From an uncultured Cohaesibacter sp. (lineage in GTDB: Bacteria; Pseudomonadota; Alphaproteobacteria; Rhizobiales; Cohaesibacteraceae), in contig NZ_OY782507.1 in the NCBI RefSeq assembly GCF_963677725.1, forward strand, positions 1,426,001-1,490,000: a stretch of 64,000 nt of DNA. The letters are read 5' to 3'. Numbering within the stretch: position 1 is the stretch's first letter; every line of letters starts with the position of its first letter. A program made the translations under genes and the position numbers. Below, piece after piece: positions 8,811-40,024 of the stretch. The notes beneath the pieces are model-generated. The model worked only from the letters and a program-made list of their open reading frames with translations. It made no database searches and was not told the origin of the DNA.

Positions 8811-10298
8811 TTATGAGAAGTCGCGGCAGACATATTTGATTTCGGTGAATTCCTCGAGGCCCTGGCGCGCCCCTTCGCGTCCAAGACCGGATTGCTTCAT
8901 GCCGCCGAAAGGAATGGGCGCACCGGTCACCTTGGTCCGGTTGACCGCCACCATGCCATATTGAAGGCTTCTGGAAGCGGCATAGATGCGTTTGGCATCG
9001 CTGGTGTGCAAATAGGCAACCAGACCATATTCGCTGTCATTGGCCAGTGCGATAACGTCTTCTTCCGTGTCGAACGGAATAAGTGCCGCAACAGGTCCAA
9101 AGGTTTCTTCCGAACAGATCAGGGCATCTCTTGGCACGTCGCCCAGAACCGTTGGCTCAAAGAAAAGCGGCCCTGCTGAGTGGACCTTCCCACCGCAAAG
9201 CAGCCGCGCGCCCTTGGCGACTGCGTCTTCGACATGTTCTTTTTGCTTGCTGATGGCATTCTCATTCATCAAAGGCCCGATATCGGGATTATCCAACCCG
9301 CGACCGATGCTCAACGCCTTTGTTGCAGCAACGAATTTGGCGGCGAAGGCGTCATAGATCGACCGCTCGACATAGAACCGGTTGGCCCCGAGGCAATCCT
9401 GTCCGGACGTTGCAAATTTGGCCGAAATGGCGCAATCAACGGCTCGGTCAAGATCGGCATCGGCAAAGACGATGAAGGGCGCATGCCCGCCAAGCTCGAG
9501 CACCAGATGCTTGATGGTCTGGGCCGATTGCCCATAGAGCAAACGGCCGACTTCGGTGGACCCGGTGAAGGATAGCGCCCGCACACGGGCATCCTTGGTC
9601 CATGGCTCGACCACCTCTGCGGCATTGCCTGTCACGATGTTGAATATTCCGGCGGGGAAACCGACCTGTTCTCCCAACTCGGCCAAGGCCGTGGCGGAAT
9701 AGGGAGTCTCCCTTGATGGATGCACGACACAGGTGCATCCAACAGCAAGGGCGGCGGCGGCTTTGCGCGTGATCATCGCGCAAGGGAAATTCCATGGCGT
9801 GATCAAGGCAACCACACCAATGGGCTCGCGCCAGACCTCGACCTCCCCATCAGGCAGGTGCGAAGTGATGCCTTCGATATTGGGGCGCTTGGCTTCTTCG
9901 GCATAAAACTCGACAAAGCTGGCCGCATAATCAATCTCGCCGCGCGCCTCTGAAATCGGCTTGCCCTGTTCCAGTGTCATCAAAAGCGCAAGGTCATCCT
10001 TGTTCTCAAGGATCAGATCGAACCACTTGCGCAAGATCGCCGCCCGCTCCTGCGGCAGCTTCGCCATCCAGGATGTGAGGGCGTTTTGTGCGGCGTCCAC
10101 AGCCTTGCGGCTATGGTCCGCCGTCAAGGCCGGAATGGTCCCCAACAATGTGCCATCGGCTGGATCACAAACCGGCAATGAATTTTTCCCCGATTGCGAC
10201 ACCCACTCGCCATTGATGTAGGAAAATTCCTTGAAGAGGCGCAAGTTGGCCAAGTCGCCAAGGGCCTCCGACCTGTTTCTTGTATGGGCAATAAACAT
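8811..10298 (-). CDS. ssd: Aldehyde dehydrogenase of ectoine degradation (Ssd/DoeC)
   Basis: NAD(P)-dependent semialdehyde dehydrogenase of 495 residues, expected to oxidise aspartate semialdehyde to aspartate at the end of the pathway. It has the ALDH landmarks PWNF (Asn170), FTGSTEVGR (244-252), general base Glu268 in LELGG and nucleophile Cys302 in SGQDCLGANRF. One oddity: the coenzyme-binding lysine motif usually written KPSE or KPAE reads HPSR (His193, Arg196). GGAGAG precedes the ATG. Succinate-semialdehyde dehydrogenase is the usual name for this gene in ectoine loci, hence the symbol. Confidence 0.88.
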   Translation of the reverse strand: MFIAHTRNRSEALGDLANLRLFKEFSYINGEWVSQSGKNSLPVCDPADGTLLGTIPALTADHSRKAVDAAQNALTSWMAKLPQERAAILRKWFDLILENKDDLALLMTLEQGKPISEARGEIDYAASFVEFYAEEAKRPNIEGITSHLPDGEVEVWREPIGVVALITPWNFPCAMITRKAAAALAVGCTCVVHPSRETPYSATALAELGEQVGFPAGIFNIVTGNAAEVVEPWTKDARVRALSFTGSTEVGRLLYGQSAQTIKHLVLELGGHAPFIVFADADLDRAVDCAISAKFATSGQDCLGANRFYVERSIYDAFAAKFVAATKALSIGRGLDNPDIGPLMNENAISKQKEHVEDAVAKGARLLCGGKVHSAGPLFFEPTVLGDVPRDALICSEETFGPVAALIPFDTEEDVIALANDSEYGLVAYLHTSDAKRIYAASRSLQYGMVAVNRTKVTGAPIPFGGMKQSGLGREGARQGLEEFTEIKYVCRDFS

Positions 10299-25791: not shown

Positions 25792-25895
25792 GTCAATTCT
25801 CCTCGGGATAACCGGTTAAACAACGAGTTGGCTTGACTTCCTTTCATCTATACAATAATTACAATTTTGAAAATTTTGTACGGATTTTGAACGCA

Positions 25896-26528
25896 ATGAT
25901 CCCCTTATCCAACCTCGCTCCCCTTTGTCGCTCTGTCTGCCACCTGTTGCCCGGGCAGGTGGAGGTGGTTTTGCATGACTTGCACACCAATCGCATTGCT
26001 CTGATTGAGAATAGCTTTTCTCCGCGCAATGCCGGCGATGACAGCCTCAGCGATGTTGGTGACTTCCAGTCCGAATTGCGCGCTGATGATACGATCGGGC
26101 CTTATATGAAATCCAACAGCGACGGATCGCGGCTGCGTTCTGTCTCGGCGCTACTGCGCGATGAGGCTGGCAATCCTGTGGCGCTTTTCTGCATTAATCT
26201 ACGGGTGGATGCGCTGGAAATGGCCCGCGATGTGCTGACGGCCCTCACCCAAATGGACCCGGCCCCGAACACAGCTTTGTTGCGCAATGACTGGCGTGAA
26301 GTGACCAATGCGATCATTGCGGCAACGCTGAAGGAATTGAAACTGTCTTTCAACCAGCTCAGGAAGCGTGATCGCGACTTGATCGTCGAACGCCTGATCA
26401 GTGCGGACATTTTCACGGCGCGTGGCGCTGTCGATTATGTTGCAGAGGCCTTGGGTATTTCCCGCACCACCCTCTACGGCCATATCAAACAATTGAAGCC
26501 TGACTCGTCAGAGACAGCCAGACAATAG
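25896..26528 (+). CDS. YheO/DauR-type transcriptional regulator
   Basis: Regulator of 210 residues with a PAS-like YheO domain (about 10-115, beginning HLLPGQVEVVLHDLHTN) and a C-terminal helix-turn-helix (about 150-200, FTARGAVDYVAEALGISRTTLYGHIK). This architecture is that of DauR, the sensor of D-arginine utilisation, and related proteins. The ATG at 25896 fits the domain start; a TTG at 25833 would add 21 residues without homology that I can see. The aminotransferase gene begins 9 bases later, so they form one unit, and the regulator likely controls it and the TRAP operon. Confidence 0.78.
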   Translation: MIPLSNLAPLCRSVCHLLPGQVEVVLHDLHTNRIALIENSFSPRNAGDDSLSDVGDFQSELRADDTIGPYMKSNSDGSRLRSVSALLRDEAGNPVALFCINLRVDALEMARDVLTALTQMDPAPNTALLRNDWREVTNAIIAATLKELKLSFNQLRKRDRDLIVERLISADIFTARGAVDYVAEALGISRTTLYGHIKQLKPDSSETARQ

Positions 26529-26537
26529 GAGCCTATC

Positions 26538-27707
26538 ATGACCCCTCCCCGTTCCATGCGCGATTTTGGTCTGGAAGTGTTTTTCTCCGAATGGGAATTC
26601 AAGGCCAAGCATCACATGACGGCATCCGACATGGAAAGCCTGTCGGTTGACGATCTGCTGGCAATGGCCAGCCCTGAAAATGCCGAGGCCTTTCGCTCGC
26701 TCTGGCTGGGATATACCCAGACGTGGGGTTTGCCTGCCCTGCGGCAGGAAATCGCCAGCACGTATGAGCAGATGGAGGAAAGCAACATTCTGTGTCTGGC
26801 AGGGGCGGGCGAAGGCCTCTATATGGTCGCCAAGATTTTGCTGGACAAAGATGATCATGCCATCGTGCCCACTCCCAATTATCAAAGCGCTGAGACTGTT
26901 CCGCTGTCGCTTTGCGAGGTCACGGGCCTGCCTTTGACAAAGGGATCGACGAAGGGTGGCTGGGGCCTCGATCTTGATGCCTTAAAGGCGGCAATCCGTC
27001 CCAATACCAAGCTTTTGTCACTCAACTTTCCGCACAATCCGACAGGACAGATCATTCCGCTTGCGGATCTTGAGGCGATCATCGAGATCTGCCGGGCCCA
27101 TGATATCTGGATTTTGAGTGACGAAGTCTATCGTGGCGTGGAGCTTGACCCTACCGACCGGCTGCCGCAGATCTGTGATCTGTACGAGAAGGGGATTTCA
27201 CTCAACGTGATGTCCAAGGCCTACGGCTTGCCGGGCCTGCGGATCGGCTGGATTGCCGCTCAGGACAAGACCTTGCTGGAGCAGGTTGAGCGCTACAAGC
27301 ATTATCTCTCGATCTGCAATTCGGCCCCGTCCGAGCAATTGGCGCTCATAGCACTCAAGGCAAGAGACGGGATCCTGGCGCGCAATCGCGGGCTTGTGGA
27401 ACGCAATATCACCGCGCTGGAACAGCTCTTTGCAGACTATCCGGGCATCATCGACTGGAGCCGACCGGTTGGGGGCTGCGTCGCCTTTGCGCACTTTACC
27501 GGGCCGGGTGGCGTGGAAGCCTTTTGCAAACGCCTGCTTGATGAGCAAGGGGTGTTGCTGTTGCCAAGCTCAATCTATGTGTCTGATCTGGGAAACACGC
27601 CGCAGGACCATTTCCGCATCGGCTTTGGTCGCGATCAGGTCTTCACCGACGGCCTTGCAGCAATGCGGCGATTCTTTGAGCATCATTATGCGGACTTTCG
27701 CGCCTAG
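26538..27707 (+). CDS. Class I/II PLP aminotransferase
   Basis: Fold-type I aminotransferase of 389 residues. Visible residues are NPTG (167-170), cofactor Asp195 in LSDEVYRG, Schiff-base Lys227 in VMSKAYGLPGLRIGW and Arg235. The 'SKAYGLPGLR' form resembles the capreomycidine-synthase/aspartate aminotransferase-like branch. An AGGAGC site precedes the ATG. It is cotranscribed with the DauR-like regulator and lies beside a TRAP transporter, so it probably acts on the imported compound. The substrate is unknown. Confidence 0.85.
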   Translation: MTPPRSMRDFGLEVFFSEWEFKAKHHMTASDMESLSVDDLLAMASPENAEAFRSLWLGYTQTWGLPALRQEIASTYEQMEESNILCLAGAGEGLYMVAKILLDKDDHAIVPTPNYQSAETVPLSLCEVTGLPLTKGSTKGGWGLDLDALKAAIRPNTKLLSLNFPHNPTGQIIPLADLEAIIEICRAHDIWILSDEVYRGVELDPTDRLPQICDLYEKGISLNVMSKAYGLPGLRIGWIAAQDKTLLEQVERYKHYLSICNSAPSEQLALIALKARDGILARNRGLVERNITALEQLFADYPGIIDWSRPVGGCVAFAHFTGPGGVEAFCKRLLDEQGVLLLPSSIYVSDLGNTPQDHFRIGFGRDQVFTDGLAAMRRFFEHHYADFRA

Positions 27708-27869
27708 CGTGGAGCGCGTGGTTATTGACCGGAGATCGGATCTTGCAGGGTGAGGATTTCGATGCGGGCGCTGTTTGGAAAGTGGATCTCTTCCAAAGGC
27801 TATGTCCTGCGGGAAAAGCCGTAAATAAGTAAGGGTTCTTATTTTCAATATTGACGAAATACCAAGAAA

Positions 27870-27899
27870 CCGGGCCCCTCACCTTGGTGAAAGGCCCGG
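27870..27899 (-). terminator. Hairpin downstream of the SDR gene
   Basis: CCGGGCC pairs with GGCCCGG, and an inner TCACC/GGTGA stem extends it. It lies between the converging aminotransferase and SDR genes. On the minus strand it is followed by a moderately T-rich stretch. Confidence 0.65.
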
Positions 27900-27917
27900 C
27901 CTGAGGCTCAACCGTTA

Positions 27918-28697
27918 TTAGATTTCGGCAATGGCCTCGAGGGACTCCGGTAGGATCTGGCCACCATCGACGACGATCTGCTGGCCAGTGATATAGGCGG
28001 CTTCCTTGGAGGCAAAGAACAGGGCCGCATTGGCAATGTCTTCGACAACGCCGAGGCGCTTCAAGGGAATGGAGGCGGCCATGGTATCGAGATAGTCTTG
28101 CCCGAGATCTTGCAGGCCTTCGGTATAGATGTTGCCCGGCATTACCGCATTGATGGTGGTGTTGTAGCGCGACAGCTCCATTGCGGCGGTTTTGAGAAAA
28201 CCGAGCTGGCCCGCCTTTGACGCGCCATAATGGGACCAGCCGGGAAAGCCGGTTATCGGGCCGGTGATCGACGAGGTGATGACCACACGCCCCTCACCCG
28301 CTGCCTCGAAGGCTGGAATGGCGGCCTTGACGCAAAGAAAGCTGCTTTTGAGATTGACCGCCATGACCTGATCCCAGTCATCGGGGGACATGTCGACCAT
28401 TTTCACCTGCGGGAAAATGCCCGCATTGGCGCACATGATGTCGAGGCTGCCAAAGGCTTTGATCGTATCGGCCACCATGGCGTTGACCTGATCCCAGTCC
28501 GAGACATCACAGCTCATGGCTTGTGCGGTGCCACCTTCGGCGACTATTTCTGCAGCGGTGGCTTCGGCCTCTTCTAGACCACGGGCGACGACCATGACCT
28601 TGGCACCCTTGGCTGCAAAGACCTTGGCAATGCCCTTGCCGATGCCCTTGGAGCCACCGGTAACAATACAGGATTTTCCTTCAATGGAGGTCAGCAT
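27918..28697 (-). CDS. SDR-family dehydrogenase
   Basis: Short-chain dehydrogenase of 259 residues. It shows the cofactor motif TGGSKGIGKG (13-22), NAG (91-93), Asn115, Ser near 142 and the YxxxK pair Tyr157/Lys161. The Arg39 after the second strand suggests NADP or NAD use without deciding it. The ATG at 28697 is chosen because the family motif begins 12 residues later; the longer reading is non-homologous. It is the last gene of the polyamine-type transporter operon, 90 bases after the PotC-like gene. It probably oxidises or reduces an intermediate of the transported compound. Confidence 0.88.
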   Translation of the reverse strand: MLTSIEGKSCIVTGGSKGIGKGIAKVFAAKGAKVMVVARGLEEAEATAAEIVAEGGTAQAMSCDVSDWDQVNAMVADTIKAFGSLDIMCANAGIFPQVKMVDMSPDDWDQVMAVNLKSSFLCVKAAIPAFEAAGEGRVVITSSITGPITGFPGWSHYGASKAGQLGFLKTAAMELSRYNTTINAVMPGNIYTEGLQDLGQDYLDTMAASIPLKRLGVVEDIANAALFFASKEAAYITGQQIVVDGGQILPESLEAIAEI

Positions 28698-28786
28698 GGA
28701 ATGGTTCCTTCTCTCAAATTTGATTGCTTTTGGTTTTTTGTGTTTTTGGCGATTGCTGTTGAGGGCGTCCGCGCGAGTGGCAATGA

Positions 28787-29638
28787 TCAACTTTGACCAG
28801 AGCGACCTTCGCGCAGGCGCTGAATGAAGGGCGGGATCGAGGGGGCGATCAGGGCAACGGCCAAGATCACCGCCGAAGCGAGCACCGTGAGAATACCAAC
28901 GGTTGGTACCAGTGGCGAATAGCCGGATACCATTTTGGCATAGAGCCATTCTGGCAAGGTGGAATCCGCCCCTGTGGTGAAGAGCGAGAGCGGAAAGTTG
29001 CCCCAGCTCAACAGGAAGGCAAAGAGGCCTGCTGAAATGACGCCCGGCATCAAGAGCGGCACCGTGATGTCGCGCAGGATTTGGAAGGTAGAGCAGCCCA
29101 TATCGCGGGCGGCTTCTTCCAGTGTCGGATCAAAGCTGTAGGCGCGAATGGAGATGATCAAGGTGGCGATGGGTGAAATCCAGACCAAATGAGCCACCAC
29201 CGCCGTATGCCATGAAGGCGTGACGCCGATGGCGTTGAACCACATCAGCAATGACAGGCCCAGCACGGTTTGGGGAAAGAAGATCGGCAGCAGGATCAGC
29301 TTTTGATAAAGCTTGCGGAAGCGCCAGTGATAGCGGGCAAAGGCCAGCGCGCCAAAGAAACCGACCAGCATGGAAATGATGGTCACAATGGCCGCGACCT
29401 TCAACGAGATGAACAAAAGCTCGGTGACCGTGTCGCTTTCCAGCGCCGCACCATACCATTTTGTATCATAGCGACGGATGGGAAAGCTGAGATAGCGCCC
29501 CTTGGAAATGGAGGCAAAGAAAACCGCCACAAGGGGCAGATAGAGCATCAGCAAAGCCCCGATGCCATAGCCCGTCAGCAGCCAGCGCGTGCGCTGCTTG
29601 TCCAAGATCGGCTTTTTGTAAACAACATCAAGGCTCAT
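28787..29638 (-). CDS. ABC permease, PotC-like
   Basis: Inner-membrane permease of 283 residues with six hydrophobic segments. The EAA loop is LEEAARDMGCSTFQILRDITVP near 170-192. It overlaps the PotB-like gene by four bases. It forms a heterodimeric channel with that protein for a polyamine- or amino-compound-type substrate. Confidence 0.9.
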   Translation of the reverse strand: MSLDVVYKKPILDKQRTRWLLTGYGIGALLMLYLPLVAVFFASISKGRYLSFPIRRYDTKWYGAALESDTVTELLFISLKVAAIVTIISMLVGFFGALAFARYHWRFRKLYQKLILLPIFFPQTVLGLSLLMWFNAIGVTPSWHTAVVAHLVWISPIATLIISIRAYSFDPTLEEAARDMGCSTFQILRDITVPLLMPGVISAGLFAFLLSWGNFPLSLFTTGADSTLPEWLYAKMVSGYSPLVPTVGILTVLASAVILAVALIAPSIPPFIQRLREGRSGQS

Positions 29639-30489
29639 TTTGCTCTCCCCATGATGGCATCGAGATCGACTTTATTGACCGCCCAGATGGCCATGCCACC
29701 AATCAGGGTGATGAGCACCATCGACAAGGCCGAGCCAAGCGGCCAGTTCTGTCCATAAGTGAAGGCGGTTTCGATTTCGTCGGCAATGACAATCACCGCC
29801 TGCCCACCAAGCAGCTTGGATTCTGCCAGGGCGCCCGCCGCAAGGACAAAGGTGAGAAGACTGCCGACAACAATGCCCGGTGCTGCGAGCGGAAGATCAA
29901 TGTCAAAGAAGATCCGAAGCTTGCCTGCTCCCAGATCTTCTGCCGCCTGCCGGGCATCGTCTGGCACCATGGAAATGCCCTGGGCCAGCGGGAAGAGCAT
30001 GAAGGGAAAATAGACATAGACGAGACCGAAAATGATGATCGGGACATTATAGAGCAGACCATCAAAGCCGGTGCCGAACCAGTGCCGGACATAGCCTTCA
30101 ATGAGGCCACCCTTCATCAGGGTCAGAACCCAGCCGAACATGCGGATATTTTCCGACACGAACAGGGTCATGACCACACCGATCGTCAACACGAGGGTGA
30201 ATCTCTTGAAGATCTTGGCCATGGCAAAGGCCAGTGGCCAGCAAATGACCAACAGGGTCAATGTGGCGGCCAGAGCCATACCGAGCGACCATGCGAGCGA
30301 GCGCCAATAGCCGTCGTGGAAAATCTCCGCATAGGCCGAGAAATCCGGCATATTGAGCAGGGAAAAGACCTTTTGCGGCATGATCGAGAAGGCCGCGACC
30401 ACGAGCAACGGGGCGAGGAAGGACAGGCAGAGCAACACCACAAGCGGCGCTGCTGTCAGCATACCCAACCGACGATCTATGCGTTCCAT
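29635..30489 (-). CDS. ABC permease, PotB-like
   Basis: Inner-membrane permease of 284 residues with six hydrophobic segments. The EAA loop reads DDARQAAEDLGAGKLRIFFD near 180-200. Its start overlaps the ATPase stop by one base and its stop overlaps the PotC-like start, showing tight translational coupling. Confidence 0.9.
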   Translation of the reverse strand: MERIDRRLGMLTAAPLVVLLCLSFLAPLLVVAAFSIMPQKVFSLLNMPDFSAYAEIFHDGYWRSLAWSLGMALAATLTLLVICWPLAFAMAKIFKRFTLVLTIGVVMTLFVSENIRMFGWVLTLMKGGLIEGYVRHWFGTGFDGLLYNVPIIIFGLVYVYFPFMLFPLAQGISMVPDDARQAAEDLGAGKLRIFFDIDLPLAAPGIVVGSLLTFVLAAGALAESKLLGGQAVIVIADEIETAFTYGQNWPLGSALSMVLITLIGGMAIWAVNKVDLDAIMGRAK

Positions 30490-31571
30490 CAGGCAGTCTC
30501 CCGGATCACATGGCAGCTGGCCGCAGACCAGCCCAGTTTCACGGTTTCATTCATCGCGCCGGCATATTGATTGTCGCGTAGGGTTTCGACGATCAGCTTT
30601 TTGCCCTGTTGGGTCAGGACTTCATACTGAATGCGCGAGCCAAGATTGAAGTCGGCCTTCACAACCCCGTGCAAGGTGATGTCGTCCGTCTCCTCCTCGG
30701 CGAGGAACTTCACATTCTCCGGTCGCACCATCAGGGTGCCACTCATGTCCGTGTCAAGGCCAAGGCTTGATGCCCCTTCCTTGGTGATTTCGAGCGGTTC
30801 TTCGCCCGTGGTCATATCGAAGAGATTCACGTCGCCCATGAATTCGGCAACGAAGGTGCTGACCGGCCGGGTATAGATTTCATCGGCGGGGGCAATCTGC
30901 TCGAACGATCCGGCGCGCATGATGGCGATGCGATCGCTCATCCCCATCGCTTCTTCCAAAGAGTGGGTGATATAAATGAAGGTCTTGCCGGTGCGCGCGT
31001 GGAGATCTTTCAGTTCCTTTTCCAGCGTCTTGCGCAGGCGATAGTCAAGCGCCGAGAGGGGCTCGTCAAAGAACAGGATTTCCGGATCAAAGGCCAAGGC
31101 ACGCGCGAGCGCCACCCGCTGCCGTTCACCGCCGGAGCATTGATGCACGCCCTTGCCATAATAGTCCTGAGGCAGCTGCAGCAAATCGAGCAGCTCAAGC
31201 GCCCGGACCTTGCGGGCCTCGGCGTCGATCTTTTTGATCTTCATCGGGAATTCGATATTTTGCCCGACGGTCATATGGGGGAACAAAGCAAGCGACTGGA
31301 ACACCATGCAGGTGGGGCGCTTGTTGGCGGGCATGGTTTCCATGCGCGTGTTGCGCAGGAAAATCGCCCCATTGGTTGGCTCGTCCATGCCGACAAGCAG
31401 TCGGATGAGCGTGGTCTTGCCGCTGCCCGATGGGCCGACAATTGCCAGAAACTCGCCCTCTTCGACCTTCAGATCGACATTATTCAACGCGGTAAAATCG
31501 CCAAAGACCTTCAACAAGCCAGCGATATTAAGGATTGGGAGTTTTGCCATGGACGTGGTTACACTCATCAT
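30489..31571 (-). CDS. ABC ATPase, PotA-like
   Basis: ATPase of 360 residues with Walker A GPSGSGKTTLI, Q-loop VFQSLALFPH, signature CSGGERQRVALARAL, Walker B ILFFDEPLSALD and the switch His in YITHS, followed by a C-terminal TOBE domain (about 285-355). The start is uncertain: ATGs occur at 31571, 31568 and 31550, the last giving the usual N-terminus. It powers the PotB/PotC-like channel. Confidence 0.9.
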   Translation of the reverse strand: MMSVTTSMAKLPILNIAGLLKVFGDFTALNNVDLKVEEGEFLAIVGPSGSGKTTLIRLLVGMDEPTNGAIFLRNTRMETMPANKRPTCMVFQSLALFPHMTVGQNIEFPMKIKKIDAEARKVRALELLDLLQLPQDYYGKGVHQCSGGERQRVALARALAFDPEILFFDEPLSALDYRLRKTLEKELKDLHARTGKTFIYITHSLEEAMGMSDRIAIMRAGSFEQIAPADEIYTRPVSTFVAEFMGDVNLFDMTTGEEPLEITKEGASSLGLDTDMSGTLMVRPENVKFLAEEETDDITLHGVVKADFNLGSRIQYEVLTQQGKKLIVETLRDNQYAGAMNETVKLGWSAASCHVIRETA

Positions 31572-31659
31572 TCTGGGTTCAATCTCGTTTGCGGGGGAAG
31601 ACGTCGCGGCGGGCGCGGCGTCCTTTTTGTCTTGGGAGGAGGATGTCTGGGCGCTGCCG

Positions 31660-32793
31660 TCAGGATCTCTTGGCAGCGTTGTAAATCTTGTTCAGCTCAT
31701 CGTAGGAAGCGACCACGTCATATTCGACGGAGCGTTCCATTTCCTCAGCCAGAGTGTCCCACTGGATGGCGTCGAGTTCTTCTTCGTTCCATTTCTCGAA
31801 CACTTTCGGATCGCCCATCTGGGAAACCGGATTGTAGGTGCCTTCGGCAAAGCCGACGGCCTTGCAGATTTCGGGTGTCTGGACGAATTCAAGGAAGTCT
31901 TCCGCGAGGCTCGAAGGATTTGGATTATTGACCAGAGAGGTCAACTCGATCCAGACCACGCCGCCCTTGCCATTGATCGGGCCGGATTTGGGCGTGATGC
32001 CGCGAATGTTGGTCAGGCCGTCAAGACGGGCCGGGCTGGCGGTATAGGTGCCACCGGTGAAATAGGCATCGATCTCGCCATTGACCAAGGCGGTGTTCAT
32101 GGCCACCAGATCATCACTGAGCAGCTTGGCGCCACCAAAGATGGCTTCTGCGGTGCCCTTGAAGGTTTCCAGACCTGCTGCATCCATCGGATCGTAAGGG
32201 TTCTGATCCCCGGTCAGGCACATATGCATGATGTTCCAGTTGTCATAGGTCAGGACGCCGTAGCGGCCCTTCATGGCCGGATCGAGGAACAATTTCCAAC
32301 CCTGATCCTCCGCCATTTCCTTGCTGATCTTGTCGGTATTGACCACGAAGGAAAAAGGCCCGTAGCGTTGGGGCATGCCGATCAGTTCGCCATCGCCGCC
32401 AAAGGCAAGGGGGTAAGGGCCGGTAAATTCTGGTGCCATCTTTTCGAAATAGGGCAGGAAGCGCTCTTTGCTGAGTGGCTTGATCAGGCCGGACGGATAG
32501 AGCTGTGACTTGGCCCATGGCTGGTTGACGTTGATCAGGTCCCAGACCTTCACTTCACCGGCGCGCAATTTGTTGATCATGTCCGGGTCGGACGTGCCAC
32601 TTTCAGCGCGGACGGTTGCGTTTGGATTGAGCTTGCGGAAGGGGCTCAAGACATCATCGGTGTTGTAACCTTCCCAACACAGGATGTTCAGTCGATCATC
32701 AACCGCAGCCTGCGCGCGGCCAAGGGGCCCAAGGGCCGCAACGCCTGCAGTCAAGGCCAGCCCTTTTGCGAAATCGCGTCTCGTAAGTTTCAT
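31660..32793 (-). CDS. Periplasmic binding protein, PotD/PotF-like, Tat-exported
   Basis: Binding protein of 377 residues of the spermidine/putrescine type. The N-terminus MKLTRRDFAKGLALTAGVAA is a twin-arginine export signal (RRDF), with cleavage near AQA. The body holds INVNQPWAKSQLYPSGLIKP and KGGVVWIELTSLV, consistent with the PotD fold. It is the first gene of the operon and is transcribed from the divergent control region at 32863-32978. Whether the ligand is a polyamine or another cationic amine such as hydroxylysine or an amino alcohol cannot be told. Confidence 0.88.
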   Translation of the reverse strand: MKLTRRDFAKGLALTAGVAALGPLGRAQAAVDDRLNILCWEGYNTDDVLSPFRKLNPNATVRAESGTSDPDMINKLRAGEVKVWDLINVNQPWAKSQLYPSGLIKPLSKERFLPYFEKMAPEFTGPYPLAFGGDGELIGMPQRYGPFSFVVNTDKISKEMAEDQGWKLFLDPAMKGRYGVLTYDNWNIMHMCLTGDQNPYDPMDAAGLETFKGTAEAIFGGAKLLSDDLVAMNTALVNGEIDAYFTGGTYTASPARLDGLTNIRGITPKSGPINGKGGVVWIELTSLVNNPNPSSLAEDFLEFVQTPEICKAVGFAEGTYNPVSQMGDPKVFEKWNEEELDAIQWDTLAEEMERSVEYDVVASYDELNKIYNAAKRS

Positions 32794-32862
32794 GTCTCAC
32801 CTCTGTTCTCGCTCGCCAAACCCCGACCAGATTTCCCTGTTGCGCGGCAGGAGAAGGGCAGC

Positions 32863-32978
32863 GTGGGATTACACTTTTGTTGTAGATTGCATGGTCATTT
32901 TGAATGATATCCCACAAAAATCAATATTTTTTTGTTGTAAGACCAACTTTTTTTGCCTATTTTGAGAGAAAGTCCCAC
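32863..32978. promoter_or_regulatory. Divergent control region with repeated GTGGGA sites
   Basis: The spacer between the PotD-like and kinase genes holds three copies of one element: GTGGGAT at 32863-32869, ATCCCAC at 32909-32915 and GTCCCAC at 32972-32978. The 10-mer TTTTGTTGTA is also repeated (32875-32884 and 32932-32941). The arrangement suggests cooperative regulator sites controlling both transcripts; the DeoR-type regulator at 35526 is the nearest candidate. Binding is inferred only. Confidence 0.5.
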
Positions 32979-33001
32979 ATTTTCATCAAGGAGGTGCTCC
33001 G

Positions 33002-33997
33002 ATGGGCGGTCTGTATAATGATCAGATGGTCAACGAATTACATAAAGGCGCGCAAAGCCTCGTGCCCTTGTGGGGTTTGTCGGAGAAAACAGAAGTGAAG
33101 CTGCTGACCGTGTCGGAAAATGCCACTTTCAAGGCGGTCGACCCGGTTGGAGGTCGCACGGTTATTCTTCGCGTTCATCGCCCGGGTTATCACACCCGCG
33201 CAGAGATCGAATCCGAGCTGTCATGGATCAAGGCGCTGCGCCAGTCTGGCGTGGTGGATACGCCAGAACCTCTGCCCATGCTCGACGGGGAGCTGATTGC
33301 CAGCTTTCAGACCGAACATGAAACGCGTGACGTGGTCGCCTTTGACTTTTGCCAGGGCGCAGAACCACAAACGGGTTCTTCGCTTGTTGCAGGCTTTCGC
33401 GATCTGGGGGCAATCAGCGCCCGGCTCCATAGCCATGTCAAGCAGTGGGACCGACCGGTCAGTTTTGTCCGTAAGACATGGAATTTTGACAGCACTCTCG
33501 GCCATGTCGCTCTGTGGGGCGACTGGCGCGATGCCATGGGGCTGACCGAGGAGGGCAAGGCGCTTCTGATCAAGGCCTGCAACAAAATCGAGGCGAAACT
33601 TGATGACTATGGCATTGAAGATGACCGCTTCGGGTTGGTGCATGCGGATTTACGGCTGGCCAATTTGCTGGTCGATGGCGACAAGATGGCCGTGATCGAC
33701 TTTGACGATTGTGGCCTTAGCTGGTTCATGTATGACTTCGCTGCGGCGATCAGTTTCATCGAGGAAGACCCGATTGTGCCGGAGTTGCAAAAGGCCTGGA
33801 TTGACGGTTACCGCTCCGTTGCCCTGCTGAGCGAAGCCGATGAGGCGATGTTCCCGACCTTCATCACCCTGCGCCGAATTCTCCTGACTGCGTGGCTGGC
33901 AAGCCATTCTGAAACCCCCACAGCACAGGAGCTTGGGGCGGGTTATACCGAAGGCACCTTGCGGATCGCGGCAGACTATCTTGCCAATGACGCCTGA
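33002..33997 (+). CDS. APH-fold small-molecule kinase, hydroxylysine kinase-like
   Basis: ATP-dependent kinase of 331 residues in the aminoglycoside phosphotransferase/choline kinase superfamily. The catalytic loop is HADLRLANLL (His214, catalytic Asp216, Asn221) and the metal-binding aspartate lies in VIDFDDCG (Asp233). A GGAGG site precedes the ATG. It begins the transcript divergent from the Pot-type transporter and is followed by a gene for an AGXT2L-type phospho-lyase. In animals hydroxylysine kinase (HYKK) and phosphohydroxylysine phospho-lyase make the same pair, so an O-phosphorylation of an amino alcohol is likely. Homoserine kinase-like or methylthioribose kinase-like roles are less supported. 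Confidence 0.75.
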   Translation: MGGLYNDQMVNELHKGAQSLVPLWGLSEKTEVKLLTVSENATFKAVDPVGGRTVILRVHRPGYHTRAEIESELSWIKALRQSGVVDTPEPLPMLDGELIASFQTEHETRDVVAFDFCQGAEPQTGSSLVAGFRDLGAISARLHSHVKQWDRPVSFVRKTWNFDSTLGHVALWGDWRDAMGLTEEGKALLIKACNKIEAKLDDYGIEDDRFGLVHADLRLANLLVDGDKMAVIDFDDCGLSWFMYDFAAAISFIEEDPIVPELQKAWIDGYRSVALLSEADEAMFPTFITLRRILLTAWLASHSETPTAQELGAGYTEGTLRIAADYLANDA

Positions 33998-34100
33998 TTG
34001 AGCGCAGCATAGATCCTTATCTACCCTGAATTGCAATTCCAACAGGAAGACATGCCAAGCGCCCCCAAAAGGATGTGCGGAGGCCCAAGCAAAGTCTCAA

Positions 34101-35438
34101 GTGAAGCAAATGTCGATAGAAAAACGCCAGATCCTGGACATGAACGCATTCCATGCCAAACATGGAGAGCCGTTGTCCGACTCCCTTCTGGGGCGGCGAA
34201 CCCAAAATGCCGGGGCCTCTTCTGTTCTGTTTTACAACAAGCCACTGGATCTGGTCTCAGCCAAGGGTTGCTGGATGACCGACCGGGACGGCGTGTCCTA
34301 TCTCGATTTCTATAATAATGTGCCTTCGGTTGGTCATTGCCACCCCCATGTGGTGGAAGCGGTTTCAAAGCAGTTGGCAGCGCTCAATGTCAATTCGCGT
34401 TATTTGTGCGAGACGACTGAGGCCTATCTGGAGAAGCTGAAAGCGACCTATCCGCCGCATCTGTCCAATGTGGTGCTGACCTGTAGCGGCAGCGAGGCCA
34501 ATGATCTGGCCTTGCGAATCGCCCGGGCCAATACAAGGGCAACCGGGGTGATTGTCACGGCGACGGCCTATCATGGCAATACCAGTGCCGTCACCGACAT
34601 TTCGCCTGCAGCCTTCATCCATGGGTCCTGCCCTGACCATGTTGCAATCATTCCAGAGCCAAGCTCGGCGGCCTATGGGGACGATATTGCCTCAGGCTTT
34701 GCTGCGGCAGTGAAACAGGCAATGGAGCAGTTGATCAACAAGGGGCATGGCATTGCGGTGCTGATTTGCGACAGCATTTTCTCTAGCGACGGGGTATTTG
34801 ATGGTCCGAAAGGCTTTTTGAAACCTGCGGTGGATTTGGTCAAAGCCGCTGGCGGGCTGTTCATTGCCGACGAAGTGCAGCCCGGCTTTGGCCGAACGGG
34901 GGAAGCCTTCTGGGGCTTTGCCCGACATGGCGTGACCCCGGATCTGGTCAGCATGGGCAAGCCGATGGGCAATGGCTATCCGATCGCCGGTATTGCTGTG
35001 CGGCCTGATCTGCTGGAGGTTTTTTGTGGTGAGGTGGGCTATTTCAACACCTTTGGCGGCACTCCGGCAGCAGCTGCTGCGGGCATGGCGGTGCTAGACG
35101 TGATTGAAGAAGAAGGCTTGCAGAACAATGCCCTTCAGATCGGCACCTATCTAAAGCAGCGTCTGGGCGAGATGGCCGAGCGTGACGGCAGGATTGGCGC
35201 CGTACGCGGAGCGGGCCTGTTTATCGGCATCGATATTTGCGACAGGCTCAGTGGCGCTGCTGCCCCACACTTGGCGAGCCAATTGATCAATGCCTTGCGC
35301 GACGAACGGGTGTTGATCGGTGCTGCTGGGCCGTTTGGCCATACATTGAAAGTACGACCGCCGCTCTGTCTATCTGCGGATGAAACGGATTATTTCCTAG
35401 AGGCCTTGCAGCGCGCGCTGGCAAGTCTGCCGGGATAG
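34101..35438 (+). CDS. AGXT2L-type phospho-lyase, class III aminotransferase fold
   Basis: PLP enzyme of about 445 residues. It carries the landmarks YLDFYNNVPSVGHCHP (68-82), TCSGSEANDLALR (127-139), IADEVQPGFGR (255-265) and Schiff-base Lys287 in MGKPMGNGYP. The NNV..VGHCHP block and the MGKPMGNG block match ethanolamine-phosphate and phosphohydroxylysine phospho-lyases, which remove phosphate and ammonia to give an aldehyde. The start is unsettled: GTG 34101, ATG 34110 and ATG 34140 are all possible. It is paired with the kinase gene 103 bases upstream. A plain transaminase is the alternative. Confidence 0.78.
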   Translation: MKQMSIEKRQILDMNAFHAKHGEPLSDSLLGRRTQNAGASSVLFYNKPLDLVSAKGCWMTDRDGVSYLDFYNNVPSVGHCHPHVVEAVSKQLAALNVNSRYLCETTEAYLEKLKATYPPHLSNVVLTCSGSEANDLALRIARANTRATGVIVTATAYHGNTSAVTDISPAAFIHGSCPDHVAIIPEPSSAAYGDDIASGFAAAVKQAMEQLINKGHGIAVLICDSIFSSDGVFDGPKGFLKPAVDLVKAAGGLFIADEVQPGFGRTGEAFWGFARHGVTPDLVSMGKPMGNGYPIAGIAVRPDLLEVFCGEVGYFNTFGGTPAAAAAGMAVLDVIEEEGLQNNALQIGTYLKQRLGEMAERDGRIGAVRGAGLFIGIDICDRLSGAAAPHLASQLINALRDERVLIGAAGPFGHTLKVRPPLCLSADETDYFLEALQRALASLPG

Positions 35439-35525: not shown

Positions 35526-36299
35526 CTATTTGCGGGCGAGCGCCATCCTCACATCGGCCCCCTTCAACGCTTCGGCGATGGCGTTTGGCGGTTCCTGATC
35601 GCTGACCAGCAAGTCAATCGCCTTCCAGTTGGCATATTGCGTGGCGAAGGTTTCCCCATATTTGGAATGGTCGGCCACCACCATGGTGCGGGTCGAGCGC
35701 TGGATCATCTGGGCATAGACTTCGCCCGCCTCAATCAGCGCATCGGTCCCACCCTCCACGTTGAGCCCACTGGCGCCGAGAATCGCCCAGTCGGCGCGAT
35801 AATTCTGCAAATAGCGAATGGTCTGGCCACCATGCATCGCGCCTTCACGGGCAAAATAGCGCCCCGGCGCCATGAACACACGGATGGTCGGATTCATCGA
35901 CAAAGCCGTTGCCACGCCAAAAGAATGGGTCAACACGGTGACATTGTTCATTTCATAGGCCATGCGACGGGCCACATGCACAGTGGTGGCACCAGACCCG
36001 ATCATGAAATGCTTCGAGCCTGCCAGCTCCTGCACCGCCGTACGGGCGATCTTCTGGCGCTCGTCCACCAGCATGTTGTGACGCTCATTGAGACCCGGTT
36101 CCTGCATATTTTGCCGTGCCACCGCACCGCCATAGGTGCGCCCGATCAGCCCCTTCTTGGTGAGCTCATCCAGATCGCGGCGGACCGTCTCGGTGGAGAC
36201 ATTGAGTTTTTCGGCAAGGTCACTGACGCGAAGGCTCGGCTGAAACGCCAGTTCCTCCACGATGCGCCGTTGGCGTGTCTGTTTCTTGTTCGATGTCAT
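35526..36299 (-). CDS. DeoR/GlpR-family repressor
   Basis: Repressor of 257 residues with an N-terminal DeoR helix-turn-helix (about 6-60, LAEKLNVSTETVRRDLDELTKKGLI) and a sugar-phosphate-sensing C-terminal domain (about 80-240, with IGSGATTVHVARRM). It converges on the phospho-lyase gene and faces away from the isochorismatase-type gene. DeoR proteins usually sense phosphorylated intermediates, which fits a pathway starting with a kinase. It may regulate the kinase/transporter region or its divergent neighbour. Confidence 0.87.
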   Translation of the reverse strand: MTSNKKQTRQRRIVEELAFQPSLRVSDLAEKLNVSTETVRRDLDELTKKGLIGRTYGGAVARQNMQEPGLNERHNMLVDERQKIARTAVQELAGSKHFMIGSGATTVHVARRMAYEMNNVTVLTHSFGVATALSMNPTIRVFMAPGRYFAREGAMHGGQTIRYLQNYRADWAILGASGLNVEGGTDALIEAGEVYAQMIQRSTRTMVVADHSKYGETFATQYANWKAIDLLVSDQEPPNAIAEALKGADVRMALARK

Positions 36300-36376
36300 G
36301 GCCGAAAATTAGCCCAGTTGCAGGGGGGCTGCAAGGAAGAACACCCAGAAAAAACCAAGGATGCAGGAGATTTGCC

Positions 36377-37057
36377 ATGAGCTGGAATTGGAAAACAGCC
36401 TATCGGTCTTTCTATTATCAAACGGCTGATGAACCAGACGATATCAAGCTTGATCCGGCACGAACGGCGCTGCTGGTCATTGACATTCAAAACACCTATC
36501 TGGAGCCAAAAGACGATGAAGAAGAGCAGGCCCGATGGCAGCCCTTCTTTGACAGAATGAACGGCCAAGTCATCCCCAAGGTGGCCGAGATGATCACCTT
36601 TTCACGCCAGAAGGGCATCGAGGTGATCTTTGCCCGCATTGCGTGCCAGACGCTGGATGGTCGGGACCGGTCTTTGTCACAAAAGAAACCCGGCTTCAAT
36701 TATCTGCTGCTTCCCAAGGACAGACAAGACAGCCAGATCGTGCCGGAGCTGACCCCACAAGGGGATGAAATCACCGTATTGAAGACAACGGATTCCGCCC
36801 TGACGGGCACGAATCTGCGGCTCACCTTGCATAATATGGGCATAGACACCCTGATCGTGACAGGCATTTTCACCGATCAATGTGTCTCCTCAACCGTCCG
36901 CAGCCTTGCCGATGAAAGCTTTAATGTGCTGGTGGTTGATGATTGCTGTGCGGCAGCCACCGACGCCCTGCATGAGGCGGAACTGGAGATCCTCAACATG
37001 ATTTATTGCCATGTTGTCCGCTCGCAGGACATTCCAAGCTTGATGCCTGAGGCGTAA
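36377..37057 (+). CDS. Isochorismatase-family hydrolase
   Basis: Cysteine hydrolase of 226 residues with the family triad Asp36 (VIDIQNTY), Lys136 (VLKTTDSAL) and Cys169 (FTDQCVSST), and the cis-peptide segment before the cysteine. Members cleave amides and related bonds, such as nicotinamide, N-carbamoylsarcosine or biuret. The ATG at 36377 has AGGAGA before it. It faces away from the DeoR gene across 77 bases and converges on the PfkB gene. The substrate is unknown; release of ammonia from an amide in one of the adjacent pathways is plausible. Confidence 0.85.
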   Translation: MSWNWKTAYRSFYYQTADEPDDIKLDPARTALLVIDIQNTYLEPKDDEEEQARWQPFFDRMNGQVIPKVAEMITFSRQKGIEVIFARIACQTLDGRDRSLSQKKPGFNYLLLPKDRQDSQIVPELTPQGDEITVLKTTDSALTGTNLRLTLHNMGIDTLIVTGIFTDQCVSSTVRSLADESFNVLVVDDCCAAATDALHEAELEILNMIYCHVVRSQDIPSLMPEA

Positions 37058-38118: not shown

Positions 38119-39018
38119 CTAATCGGTCTGTTCGCGGGTCCGTTTCTTGGCAATTTCACGCTCCAGCGGCCTTGTATCCCCTAAAATGGCATGGGCCTCT
38201 GGATCCTGTTGAGACACGGCCACCGAAATGGCCTCGATAATCGCCAGTTGCGAGATACGGGTGCCGAGGATATCGAGGGCTGGCGGCATCCTGCGCACCG
38301 CAGACACCAGTATCAGATCGGCAACCTTGGTGGCCGGCGATGCCGGATCGCTCGTGATCAGGATACGGTCCAGACCTTTCTCGCCAGCGGTCTCGAAGGC
38401 ATCAACCAAATCCCGGGTCCGTCCGGAGCAGGAAATCCCCAAAAAGACAGTTCCCGGCTTGCTGCGGGCTGTGACCACCGCAAGAATATGCGGATCGCTA
38501 TGAGCCATGGCAGGCAGCCCGAGGGACAACAGCCTGCGGCAGGCATCAATGGCAATCGGGGCGGAACTGCCAAAGCCGACGATCTGGATCTGAGCGGCAT
38601 TGAGCAGCCGCTCGGTTGCCTGCTCCAGAGCATCAAGCGAGAGCACCGTCGGCGTGCGCATCAATTGCTCGATATTGGCTTCGATGACCTTTTGCAAGAT
38701 GGCCCCATAGCTATGGTCATGGGCTTCCTCGCTGGCTCCGGCCATTTGCGAGCCAAGAGCAAGCCCCCTGCCTTCTGCAAGCGCCAGACGCAGATCCTTG
38801 TAGCCGGTGAGACCAAGCAGTTTGCAGAAACGAAAGATTGTCGTCTCGCTAACCTCTGTGCGGTTTGCAAGGTCAGAAATGGTCAAGCGACGGCACACAT
38901 CCTGATGGTCCAGCACCCATTTGGCCAGCGGGGCCATGGTCTTGTCATCGGATCGGGCAACCGAGGTCAACACCTGAAAGATATCGACCATCGGCTCGGC
39001 CTGTCGATTATCTGCCAT
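38119..39018 (-). CDS. RpiR-family regulator with SIS domain
   Basis: Regulator of 299 residues with an RpiR helix-turn-helix (about 10-80, ISDLANRTEVSETTIFRFCKLLG-like ANRTEVSETTIFRFCK) and a phosphosugar-binding SIS domain (about 120-250, containing GFGSSAPIAIDACRRL). Its start overlaps the aldolase-like stop by about 11 bases, so it is coupled to that gene. It probably represses this operon until its phosphosugar ligand appears. Confidence 0.88.
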   Translation of the reverse strand: MADNRQAEPMVDIFQVLTSVARSDDKTMAPLAKWVLDHQDVCRRLTISDLANRTEVSETTIFRFCKLLGLTGYKDLRLALAEGRGLALGSQMAGASEEAHDHSYGAILQKVIEANIEQLMRTPTVLSLDALEQATERLLNAAQIQIVGFGSSAPIAIDACRRLLSLGLPAMAHSDPHILAVVTARSKPGTVFLGISCSGRTRDLVDAFETAGEKGLDRILITSDPASPATKVADLILVSAVRRMPPALDILGTRISQLAIIEAISVAVSQQDPEAHAILGDTRPLEREIAKKRTREQTD

Positions 39019-40024
39019 CACAGAAGCCAGCCTTGAGGACCGGATCCGTCAGCTCGCTATCCTCATCAAGACTGAGTTTGGGTTTGATGCCCGCCTTCAA
39101 CAGTCCATTATAATAAAGCTTGGTAGCCTCTTGCGAGCTGAGGCCCTCTTCCAGCATCAGCCGCATGGTGCGGACGATCTCTACCGAGCTTTCGGCAAAG
39201 AAGATCCGACGGCCAAACAGGGCGACGCGCGCACCATATGCCTCTGACTGCTTGATCATTTCAAGGGTATCGCGCGTGGTGGAGAATGCGCCACCAAGGA
39301 TGCCAACGATCAGGTTGCCCGGATCGTAAGAGGCAAGCTCTTCCATCGCGCGGGGACCGTTATAGGCCATTTTCAGAAAGACGGGACGATCAAGGCTCGA
39401 CACACCGGCCAGCGTGCGCACAATGGCGTCATTGTTATAACTGGCAAAATCGCTGCCCGGTGTCGCGACATCGAAATGGGGGTTGAAGACTTCCAGAAAG
39501 TGCCGCACACCGGCGCTGGATGCCTCATCGCGGAAGCGGGCATAGGCCTCCAGCGTATGATGGTCTTTCTCAAGATCATTATAGAAGGTGATGGCATAAA
39601 GCCCCAGATCGGCGACAGGCTTGACCCGGTCGAGACGGGCAGAACGAAACGGTTTGCACGCAAAGCGCTTATAGTCGGCGCCACGCATCAGCCAGATATC
39701 GCTGCCGTCATTGAGGCGTACGGCGGGGGTGATGTCGCTGCCAGCAAAATGCCCTTCGCGGGTCAGATATTCGCAGGACGACTGGGACGTGAGCATGATG
39801 TCGATGAGATCGGAGCGGCACATTTCAATCATGTCGTCGCGATAGACCTGCATCGGCCTCATCATGCCCGTCGGCTTGCCATCCTTGTCCAGACGCGGCC
39901 CGTTGGCGGCAATTCCGCCCGCCATGTCGGCATCCTTGGCATCGGCAATGATGAAATCCGAAGAGCGATAAAGTCCCTTTTCGATCCGCGCCAATTTCTC
40001 ATCAAGGCGTTTCATCTTGGCCAT
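39008..40024 (-). CDS. TIM-barrel aldolase-like protein
   Basis: Protein of 338 residues that I read as a class I aldolase-like barrel (FbaB/LacD/DeoC superfamily). Supports are the alternating strand-helix pattern, a lysine in RPVFLKMAYNG that would be the Schiff-base residue, and GILGGAFSTTRDTLEMI with a phosphate-binding glycine run near the end. Overall homology is not recognised with certainty. A GGAGG site precedes the ATG. It is the first gene of the operon with RpiR and PfkB, which supports a role in splitting a phosphorylated sugar. Confidence 0.6.
   Translation of the reverse strand: MAKMKRLDEKLARIEKGLYRSSDFIIADAKDADMAGGIAANGPRLDKDGKPTGMMRPMQVYRDDMIEMCRSDLIDIMLTSQSSCEYLTREGHFAGSDITPAVRLNDGSDIWLMRGADYKRFACKPFRSARLDRVKPVADLGLYAITFYNDLEKDHHTLEAYARFRDEASSAGVRHFLEVFNPHFDVATPGSDFASYNNDAIVRTLAGVSSLDRPVFLKMAYNGPRAMEELASYDPGNLIVGILGGAFSTTRDTLEMIKQSEAYGARVALFGRRIFFAESSVEIVRTMRLMLEEGLSSQEATKLYYNGLLKAGIKPKLSLDEDSELTDPVLKAGFCDGR

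Follow-up and report, generated by a model that had tools for sequence, protein, structure and literature searches.

Gene content of the cluster and nearest relatives of its proteins

The window analysed here is a 64,000 bp stretch (bases 1426001-1490000) of the 4.63-Mb one-contig genome of an uncultured Cohaesibacter sp. (NZ_OY782507.1), and carries a divergent gene cluster predicted to import and degrade a small amino ketone or amino alcohol (Table 1). The seven genes named in a first-pass annotation of this DNA (27918..35438) were all open frames at the coordinates it had given. In transcription order, the minus strand carries a binding protein, an ATPase and two permeases of an ATP-binding cassette (ABC) importer and a short-chain dehydrogenase/reductase (SDR), and the plus strand divergently carries a kinase and a pyridoxal phosphate (PLP) enzyme. 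The ATPase gene shares 1 base with the first permease gene, and the two permease genes share 4. For the SDR, the probable start is 28697 and not the longest-ORF (open reading frame) start of 28949, since the match with its solved relatives begins at Met 28697. The cluster was also wider than initially described. A DeoR regulator and an isochorismatase-like hydrolase often accompany it in relatives, and because of this recurrence both are probably part of the unit.

Table 1. Features of the amino-alcohol cluster and its flanks, in window positions
Feature	Positions	Strand	Match or basis
Terminator-like hairpin closing the operon from binding protein to SDR	27867..27902	-	16 pairs, 9 G-C; 3' of SDR
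SDR, predicted aminoacetone reductase/(S)-1-amino-2-propanol dehydrogenase	27918..28697	-	6ci8/6ci9
ABC permease, PotC-like	28787..29638	-	Pfam BPD_transp_1 3.3e-14; PotC 121.2 bits, cut-off 326
ABC permease, PotB-like	29635..30489	-	PotB 131.7 bits, cut-off 348
ABC ATPase, PotA-like	30489..31571	-	TIGR01187 301 bits, cut-off 355.6
Periplasmic binding protein, twin-arginine (Tat-type) start	31660..32793	-	Weak SBP_bac_6, under cut-off
Divergent promoter region	32794..33001	.	Two exact TTTTGTTGTA copies, candidate DeoR sites
APH-fold amino-alcohol kinase, predicted (S)-1-amino-2-propanol kinase	33002..33997	+	Pfam APH 2.4e-27
AGXT2L-type PLP phospho-lyase, predicted 1-amino-2-propanol O-phosphate phospho-lyase	34101..35438	+	Pfam Aminotran_3 9.7e-76
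DeoR-family protein, predicted to regulate the cluster	35526..36299	-	Pfam DeoRC 9.4e-38
Isochorismatase-family hydrolase, recurrent partner	36275..37057, likely start 36377	+	Pfam Isochorismatase 1.5e-34

The closest solved relatives of both the kinase (43% identity) and the SDR were aminoacetone/aminopropanol enzymes of the RMM/AAUM microcompartment system (Aut; Mycobacterium, Rhodococcus). For the SDR the best matches were 6ci8 (1e-97) and 6ci9 (8.9e-97), both titled as microcompartment-associated aminoacetone/aminopropanol dehydrogenases. With 6ci8 as query against the whole genome, the window SDR was the top of 27 matches (329 bits, 59% identity) and the runner-up SDR reached 142 bits and 36% identity. 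The SDR had initially been taken for an aldehyde-processing enzyme, and this role was rejected in view of the titles of its closest solved relatives. The motifs named earlier for the kinase (APH loop) and the PLP enzyme (NNVxxVGHCHP, MGKPMGNG) were present; the kinase motifs read FGLVHADLRLANLL and VIDFDDCG.

Family membership gives good support to the PLP enzyme being a phospho-lyase. Against all solved structures, its best matches were 5g4i, a phospholyase (1e-108), and 6tor, the human ethanolamine-phosphate phospho-lyase (1.7e-99); the third-best was a dialkylglycine decarboxylase (9.4e-48), with transaminases well separated. The lyase motifs were NNVPSVGHCHP and SMGKPMGNG, with the catalytic Lys 287 within MGKPMGNG. 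In the alignment, the blocks NNV..VGH, SGSEAN, DEVQ.GFGR, MGKPMGNG and FNT were identical in the window lyase, 5g4i and 6tor, and the microcompartment enzyme of Rhodococcus jostii RHA1 had TGSEAN for SGSEAN and the remaining blocks the same. Less constant were YHGNT (YHGH in 6tor, YHGC in RHA1) and LKVR (LKIK in 6tor). In our reading of these aligned rows, GKP would be a mark of phospho-lyases. Identity of the window lyase was 44% to 5g4i, 43% to 6tor and 43% to the RHA1 enzyme. The window lyase therefore has most active-site blocks in common with 5g4i, which we take to be an Arthrobacter protein, and human ETNPPL (6tor), but it has other genetic partners and so probably acts on a different phospho-amino-alcohol.

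The binding protein begins with MKLTRRDFAKG, and R5 and R6 were kept in at least 97% of the rows of a 48-row alignment (the window protein and relatives of at least 400 bits). No NCBIfam model matched it at 0.001. The importer belongs to the same ABC family as the spermidine/putrescine importer PotABCD, and PotA, PotB and PotC were the top NCBIfam matches of its ATPase and permeases, but all three fell under the curated Pot equivalog cut-offs (296.5 bits for the ATPase with the PotA equivalog model, cut-off 482).

Occurrence in relatives and comparison with microcompartment loci

A total of 139 kinase loci beyond the window were collected, namely the 80 best of at least 578 relatives, 54 loci from the same order and 5 plasmid stretches. 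Three duplicates (L127, L139, L141) were dropped, giving 136 loci besides the window, of which 101 have at least 7 kb on each side of the kinase. The bit-score thresholds were of our own choosing (among them lyase 300, SDR 295, binding protein 250, DeoR 200), a partner past the fetched flank was scored as absent, and aldehyde dehydrogenases were counted with two reference sequences. The 54 same-order loci came from a sample of 199 genomes, 56 of which had the kinase at E ≤ 1e-30; two kinase fragments from this sample (G038, G114) were not among the loci collected.

Among the 101 loci, the lyase was found in 64, the SDR in 61, the binding protein in 40, DeoR (at least 200 bits) in 44 and the isochorismatase-like hydrolase in 16. 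Lyase and SDR occurred together in 51 loci, and together with the binding protein in 36. The gene set recurs in many genomes and its grouping is therefore not due to chance. Plasmid At of Agrobacterium fabrum C58 (L039) carries the whole cassette (kinase, lyase, SDR, importer, isochorismatase-like hydrolase and DeoR) under generic names, a Lonsdalea locus (Pectobacteriaceae; L112) carries kinase, lyase, SDR, DeoR and an APC permease, and a cluster on a Moraxella plasmid combines an MMSDH-type dehydrogenase directly with SDR, kinase and a GKPMGNG-type lyase. In five gammaproteobacterial loci (L072, L079, L081, L082 and L085; four of them Methylophaga), kinase and lyase form a single open frame, 772-784 codons long, in which both catalytic motifs are present. 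The earlier proposal that an amino alcohol is imported and then acted on by kinase and lyase was supported in this respect, the two enzymes being adjacent here, fused in five relatives and next to a Pot-like importer. In the kinase tree, the window kinase paired with the same-genus copy (support 99), and the kinase was present in two of the six same-genus genomes shown, its own included, so the cassette looks accessory.

Shell genes were found in 11 of the 136 loci, ten from the same order (L146, L147, L152, L153, L157, L159, L160, L164, L167 and L168) and that of RHA1. Nine of the ten same-order loci have an SDR 65-79% identical to that of the window, and four of these nine also have a binding protein 55-76% identical to the window protein. 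A contig-edge piece (L154) from the same genome as shell locus L153 carries SDR and binding protein at 63-64%. This importer and SDR are therefore found both at shell loci and at loci free of shell genes. No PF00936 or PF03319 match to a shell protein was found at E 0.001 in the 4.63-Mb genome; the E. coli and Synechococcus controls were positive.

The RMM is described with a phosphotransferase, a short-chain dehydrogenase and an aminotransferase in the available part of PMC4207490, and was later renamed Aaum (excerpt of PMC8007038). Its aminopropanol-type kinase is shared with the window cluster, the RHA1 lyase is likewise of the AGXT2L type and has GKPMGNG, and alphaproteobacterial relatives have the window-type importer and SDR beside shell genes. 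However, the window genome lacks a shell-protein match and the window locus an aldehyde dehydrogenase, DeoR stands in place of GntR, and the Pot-like ABC importer differs from the amino-acid/GabP-type permease of the published loci, as given in the accessible portions of PMC4207490 and PMC6620236. In what is available of the latter, a 2019 comparative study, the PLP enzyme is proposed to be a transaminase giving lactaldehyde with a late phosphotransferase step, and the phosphotransferase gene lies outside the cluster in Proteobacteria (n=2 genomes). The proteobacterial shell loci collected here differ from that account, as excerpted, in carrying the kinase, with an alternative PLP enzyme, and the shell-free loci in having a phospho-lyase-type enzyme beside the kinase or fused to it. 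Since kinase and lyase can be fused and the Rhodococcus enzyme carries a phospho-lyase signature, we argue that the PLP step in the Rhodococcus microcompartment would be phosphate elimination.

The alternative PLP enzymes form a second class-III family, with GKG for GKP, which replaces the AGXT2L lyase beside the kinase in 10 of the 11 shell loci and at six further loci (L099, L106, L108, L117, L145 and L154, the last cut at a contig edge). This family was present in 16 of the 136 loci, the AGXT2L type in 81 and both in none, counts which are inflated by kinship among the loci. The single member aligned (L168:9661-10962) was 22-25% identical to the lyases, the nearest solved relative of another (L164) was a putrescine aminotransferase, and for L106 and L168 none of the 25 best NCBIfam models was over its cut-off. 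With up to 8 candidates scored per genome, the family was found in 13 of the 199 genomes of the order, all 13 with the kinase (28% overall), and 13 of its 14 places were less than 6 kb from the kinase, the remaining one being on a separate contig. In the kinase tree the loci with the alternative enzyme fell in two separate regions. The GKG family is a candidate for a second amino-alcohol-phosphate lyase that evolved independently, or may mark a transamination branch.

Predicted pathway and alternative substrates

Overall, the cluster is probably a microcompartment-free catabolic module for aminoacetone and 1-amino-2-propanol, an assignment considered likely on the strength of gene set, families, relatives, synteny and fusion. 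The ABC importer would take in aminoacetone or 1-amino-2-propanol, and the SDR, judged by its close relatives, would interconvert aminoacetone and (S)-1-amino-2-propanol with NADP(H). The kinase, likewise by its close relatives, would phosphorylate the hydroxyl with ATP, and the PLP phospho-lyase would eliminate the phosphate, with hydrolysis of the enamine giving propionaldehyde and ammonia; the family suggests this type of reaction and the context the substrate. Propionaldehyde may then yield propionyl-CoA, probably via an unlinked CoA-acylating dehydrogenase, for a methylmalonyl-CoA mutase-type enzyme. The cluster lacks an aldehyde dehydrogenase; of the 15 Aldedh matches in the genome, the closest is approximately 18 kb off (window about 8829-10205). 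In the genome, three MMSDH-type genes for CoA-acylating dehydrogenases and two matches to acyl-CoA mutase (TIGR00641) exceeded their cut-offs, and use of propionyl-CoA is therefore possible. The same two-step chemistry was reportedly found by enzymology in Erwinia and Pseudomonas in the 1970s, where an amino alcohol kinase and an amino alcohol O-phosphate phospho-lyase are said to convert 1-amino-2-propanol to propionaldehyde; that work reportedly gave no genes, and the ABC importer is a feature of the window type.

Several results weigh against this assignment. The fold search with the SDR did not discriminate, as 6ci8 was at rank 12 and tied with many FabG-like rows. The RHA1 microcompartment locus had no SDR match within 15 kb, and with a PLP enzyme that is not of the AGXT2L type in 10 of the 11 shell loci, the bridge to the microcompartments rests on importer, SDR and kinase and not on the lyase. 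The lyase was without the SDR in 13 of the 101 loci, so that other amino alcohols may pass through the phospho-lyase step. A further 26 of the 101 kinase loci were without lyase, alternative PLP enzyme and SDR alike, and five of these (L165, L166, L170, L172 and L174) share a conserved gene set which looks like an exopolysaccharide cluster and suggests decoration of a polysaccharide with amino-alcohol phosphate; Pfam families of exopolysaccharide type were identified in the two loci scanned (O-antigen ligase, sugar transferase and glycosyltransferase in L165, Wzz in L172). In addition, 80 of the 139 loci were picked as best matches to the window kinase and the sample favours close kin, and the kinase tree was a quick one, with 6ef6 and RHA1 as long branches of unsure placement and its deeper placements unsafe.

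Another vicinal amino alcohol of like size (2-amino-1-propanol, 1-amino-2-butanol or 3-amino-1,2-propanediol) could pass through the same chain of enzymes, given that these are only relatives of the solved ones (43% for the kinase, 59% for the SDR) and that an isochorismatase-like hydrolase recurs in 19 of 136 loci, which hints at a precursor that goes beyond aminopropanol itself. Microcompartment loci of the aminoacetone type, however, have this binding protein and SDR as well, and such a substrate is unlikely, if not far-fetched. Uptake of ethanolamine or an N-methylated form of it, followed by phosphorylation and cleavage into acetaldehyde, ammonia and phosphate, the SDR acting at another step, is in our view decidedly unlikely; it would agree with the bacterial phospholyase and human ethanolamine-phosphate phospho-lyase being the closest solved lyases, with the loci that have a lyase without an SDR, and with two kinase relatives near genes annotated as ethanolamine permease.

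Hydroxylysine catabolism by a hydroxylysine kinase and a phosphohydroxylysine phospho-lyase, the route initially suggested, fits the presence of an AGXT2L-type lyase and an APH-fold kinase, and lyases for phosphohydroxylysine and phosphoethanolamine were identified together according to a reference title in the part of PMC8154272 available. It was nevertheless rejected as the leading explanation and is very improbable. The nearest solved relatives of kinase and SDR are C3 amino-alcohol/ketone enzymes, and the genome encodes a separate APH-M23-aminotransferase fusion of 1036 residues (L194:3242-6352; contig about 3550241-3553351), the lyase part of which is nearer to human ETNPPL than the window lyase (51% against 43% identity). 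The first 450 residues of this fusion, kinase domain included, had no match with the window kinase; no hydroxylysine kinase was named among the matches listed for the latter, so that comparison with one was not possible there. If an animal-like hydroxylysine route occurs in this strain, the fusion would be the better candidate. Aminopropanol phosphate is also a building block of cobalamin (B12), and the kinase might supply it for B12 assembly next to an unrelated transaminase. This is highly improbable as well, since an adjacent and sometimes fused PLP enzyme with a phospho-lyase signature would destroy the product, and none of the 10 cluster and neighbour proteins scanned reached a cobalamin-family cut-off among the matches listed.

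Regulation, flanking genes and wider significance

DeoR probably regulates the divergent operons of the aminopropanol cluster, and that it senses a phosphorylated intermediate is speculative. The TTTTGTTGTA copies at 32875-32884 and 32930-32939 are the sole exact copies in the window. The motif also lies 5' of the kinase in the same-genus locus L124 and was not found in 10 other relatives examined, save for a half-like site in L044; as far as seen, it is confined to the genus. The isochorismatase-like hydrolase occurs in loci with or without shell genes (2 of its loci have them), and perhaps releases the amino alcohol from an amide. The signal scan gave 7 promoter-like signals against 4.9 expected and 13 terminator-like signals against 10.0 (sd 3.6) expected, and was uninformative except for the hairpin after the SDR, which is weak by itself.

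Beside the cluster, positions 25833-27707 encode a YheO-type PAS regulator followed by a class-I PLP enzyme, with upstream ORFs that by eye are TRAP transporter-like. The best NCBIfam matches of this enzyme (PRK07324 aminotransferase, GntC cyclodehydratase and capreomycidine synthase) were all under cut-off. On the other side, a 338-residue protein (39011-40024) had no Pfam match at 0.001, and its neighbours are a PfkB kinase and an RpiR/SIS regulator.

In bacteria, a complete route for an amino alcohol was at first thought to be new, but conversion of aminoacetone to propionyl-CoA had already been proposed for RMM/AAUM (accessible part of PMC8156839, citing Mallette and Kimber 2018). The kinase/phospho-lyase chemistry being known as well, the new part would be the shell-free state with its own ABC importer. 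No description of such a cluster was met in the available portions of the open-licence literature (PMC4207490, PMC6620236, PMC8007038, PMC8156839, PMC8217296 and PMC8154272, the last of which treats, in the part available, a related lyase).

More broadly, and only tentatively, aminoacetone and aminopropanol breakdown in Proteobacteria may proceed mainly free in the cytosol, by means of a cassette that has spread together with an ABC importer of its own. In that view the microcompartment would be an optional extra to this importer and SDR, and the key PLP step would have been replaced by the undescribed GKG family, an amino-alcohol-phosphate lyase of independent origin. The cassette, whose genes bear generic names such as FabG, aspartate aminotransferase and phosphotransferase (on the Agrobacterium plasmid At, for instance), gains a checkable function, and the shell-free clusters are natural controls for the question of what makes some bacteria confine aminoacetone metabolism to a microcompartment.

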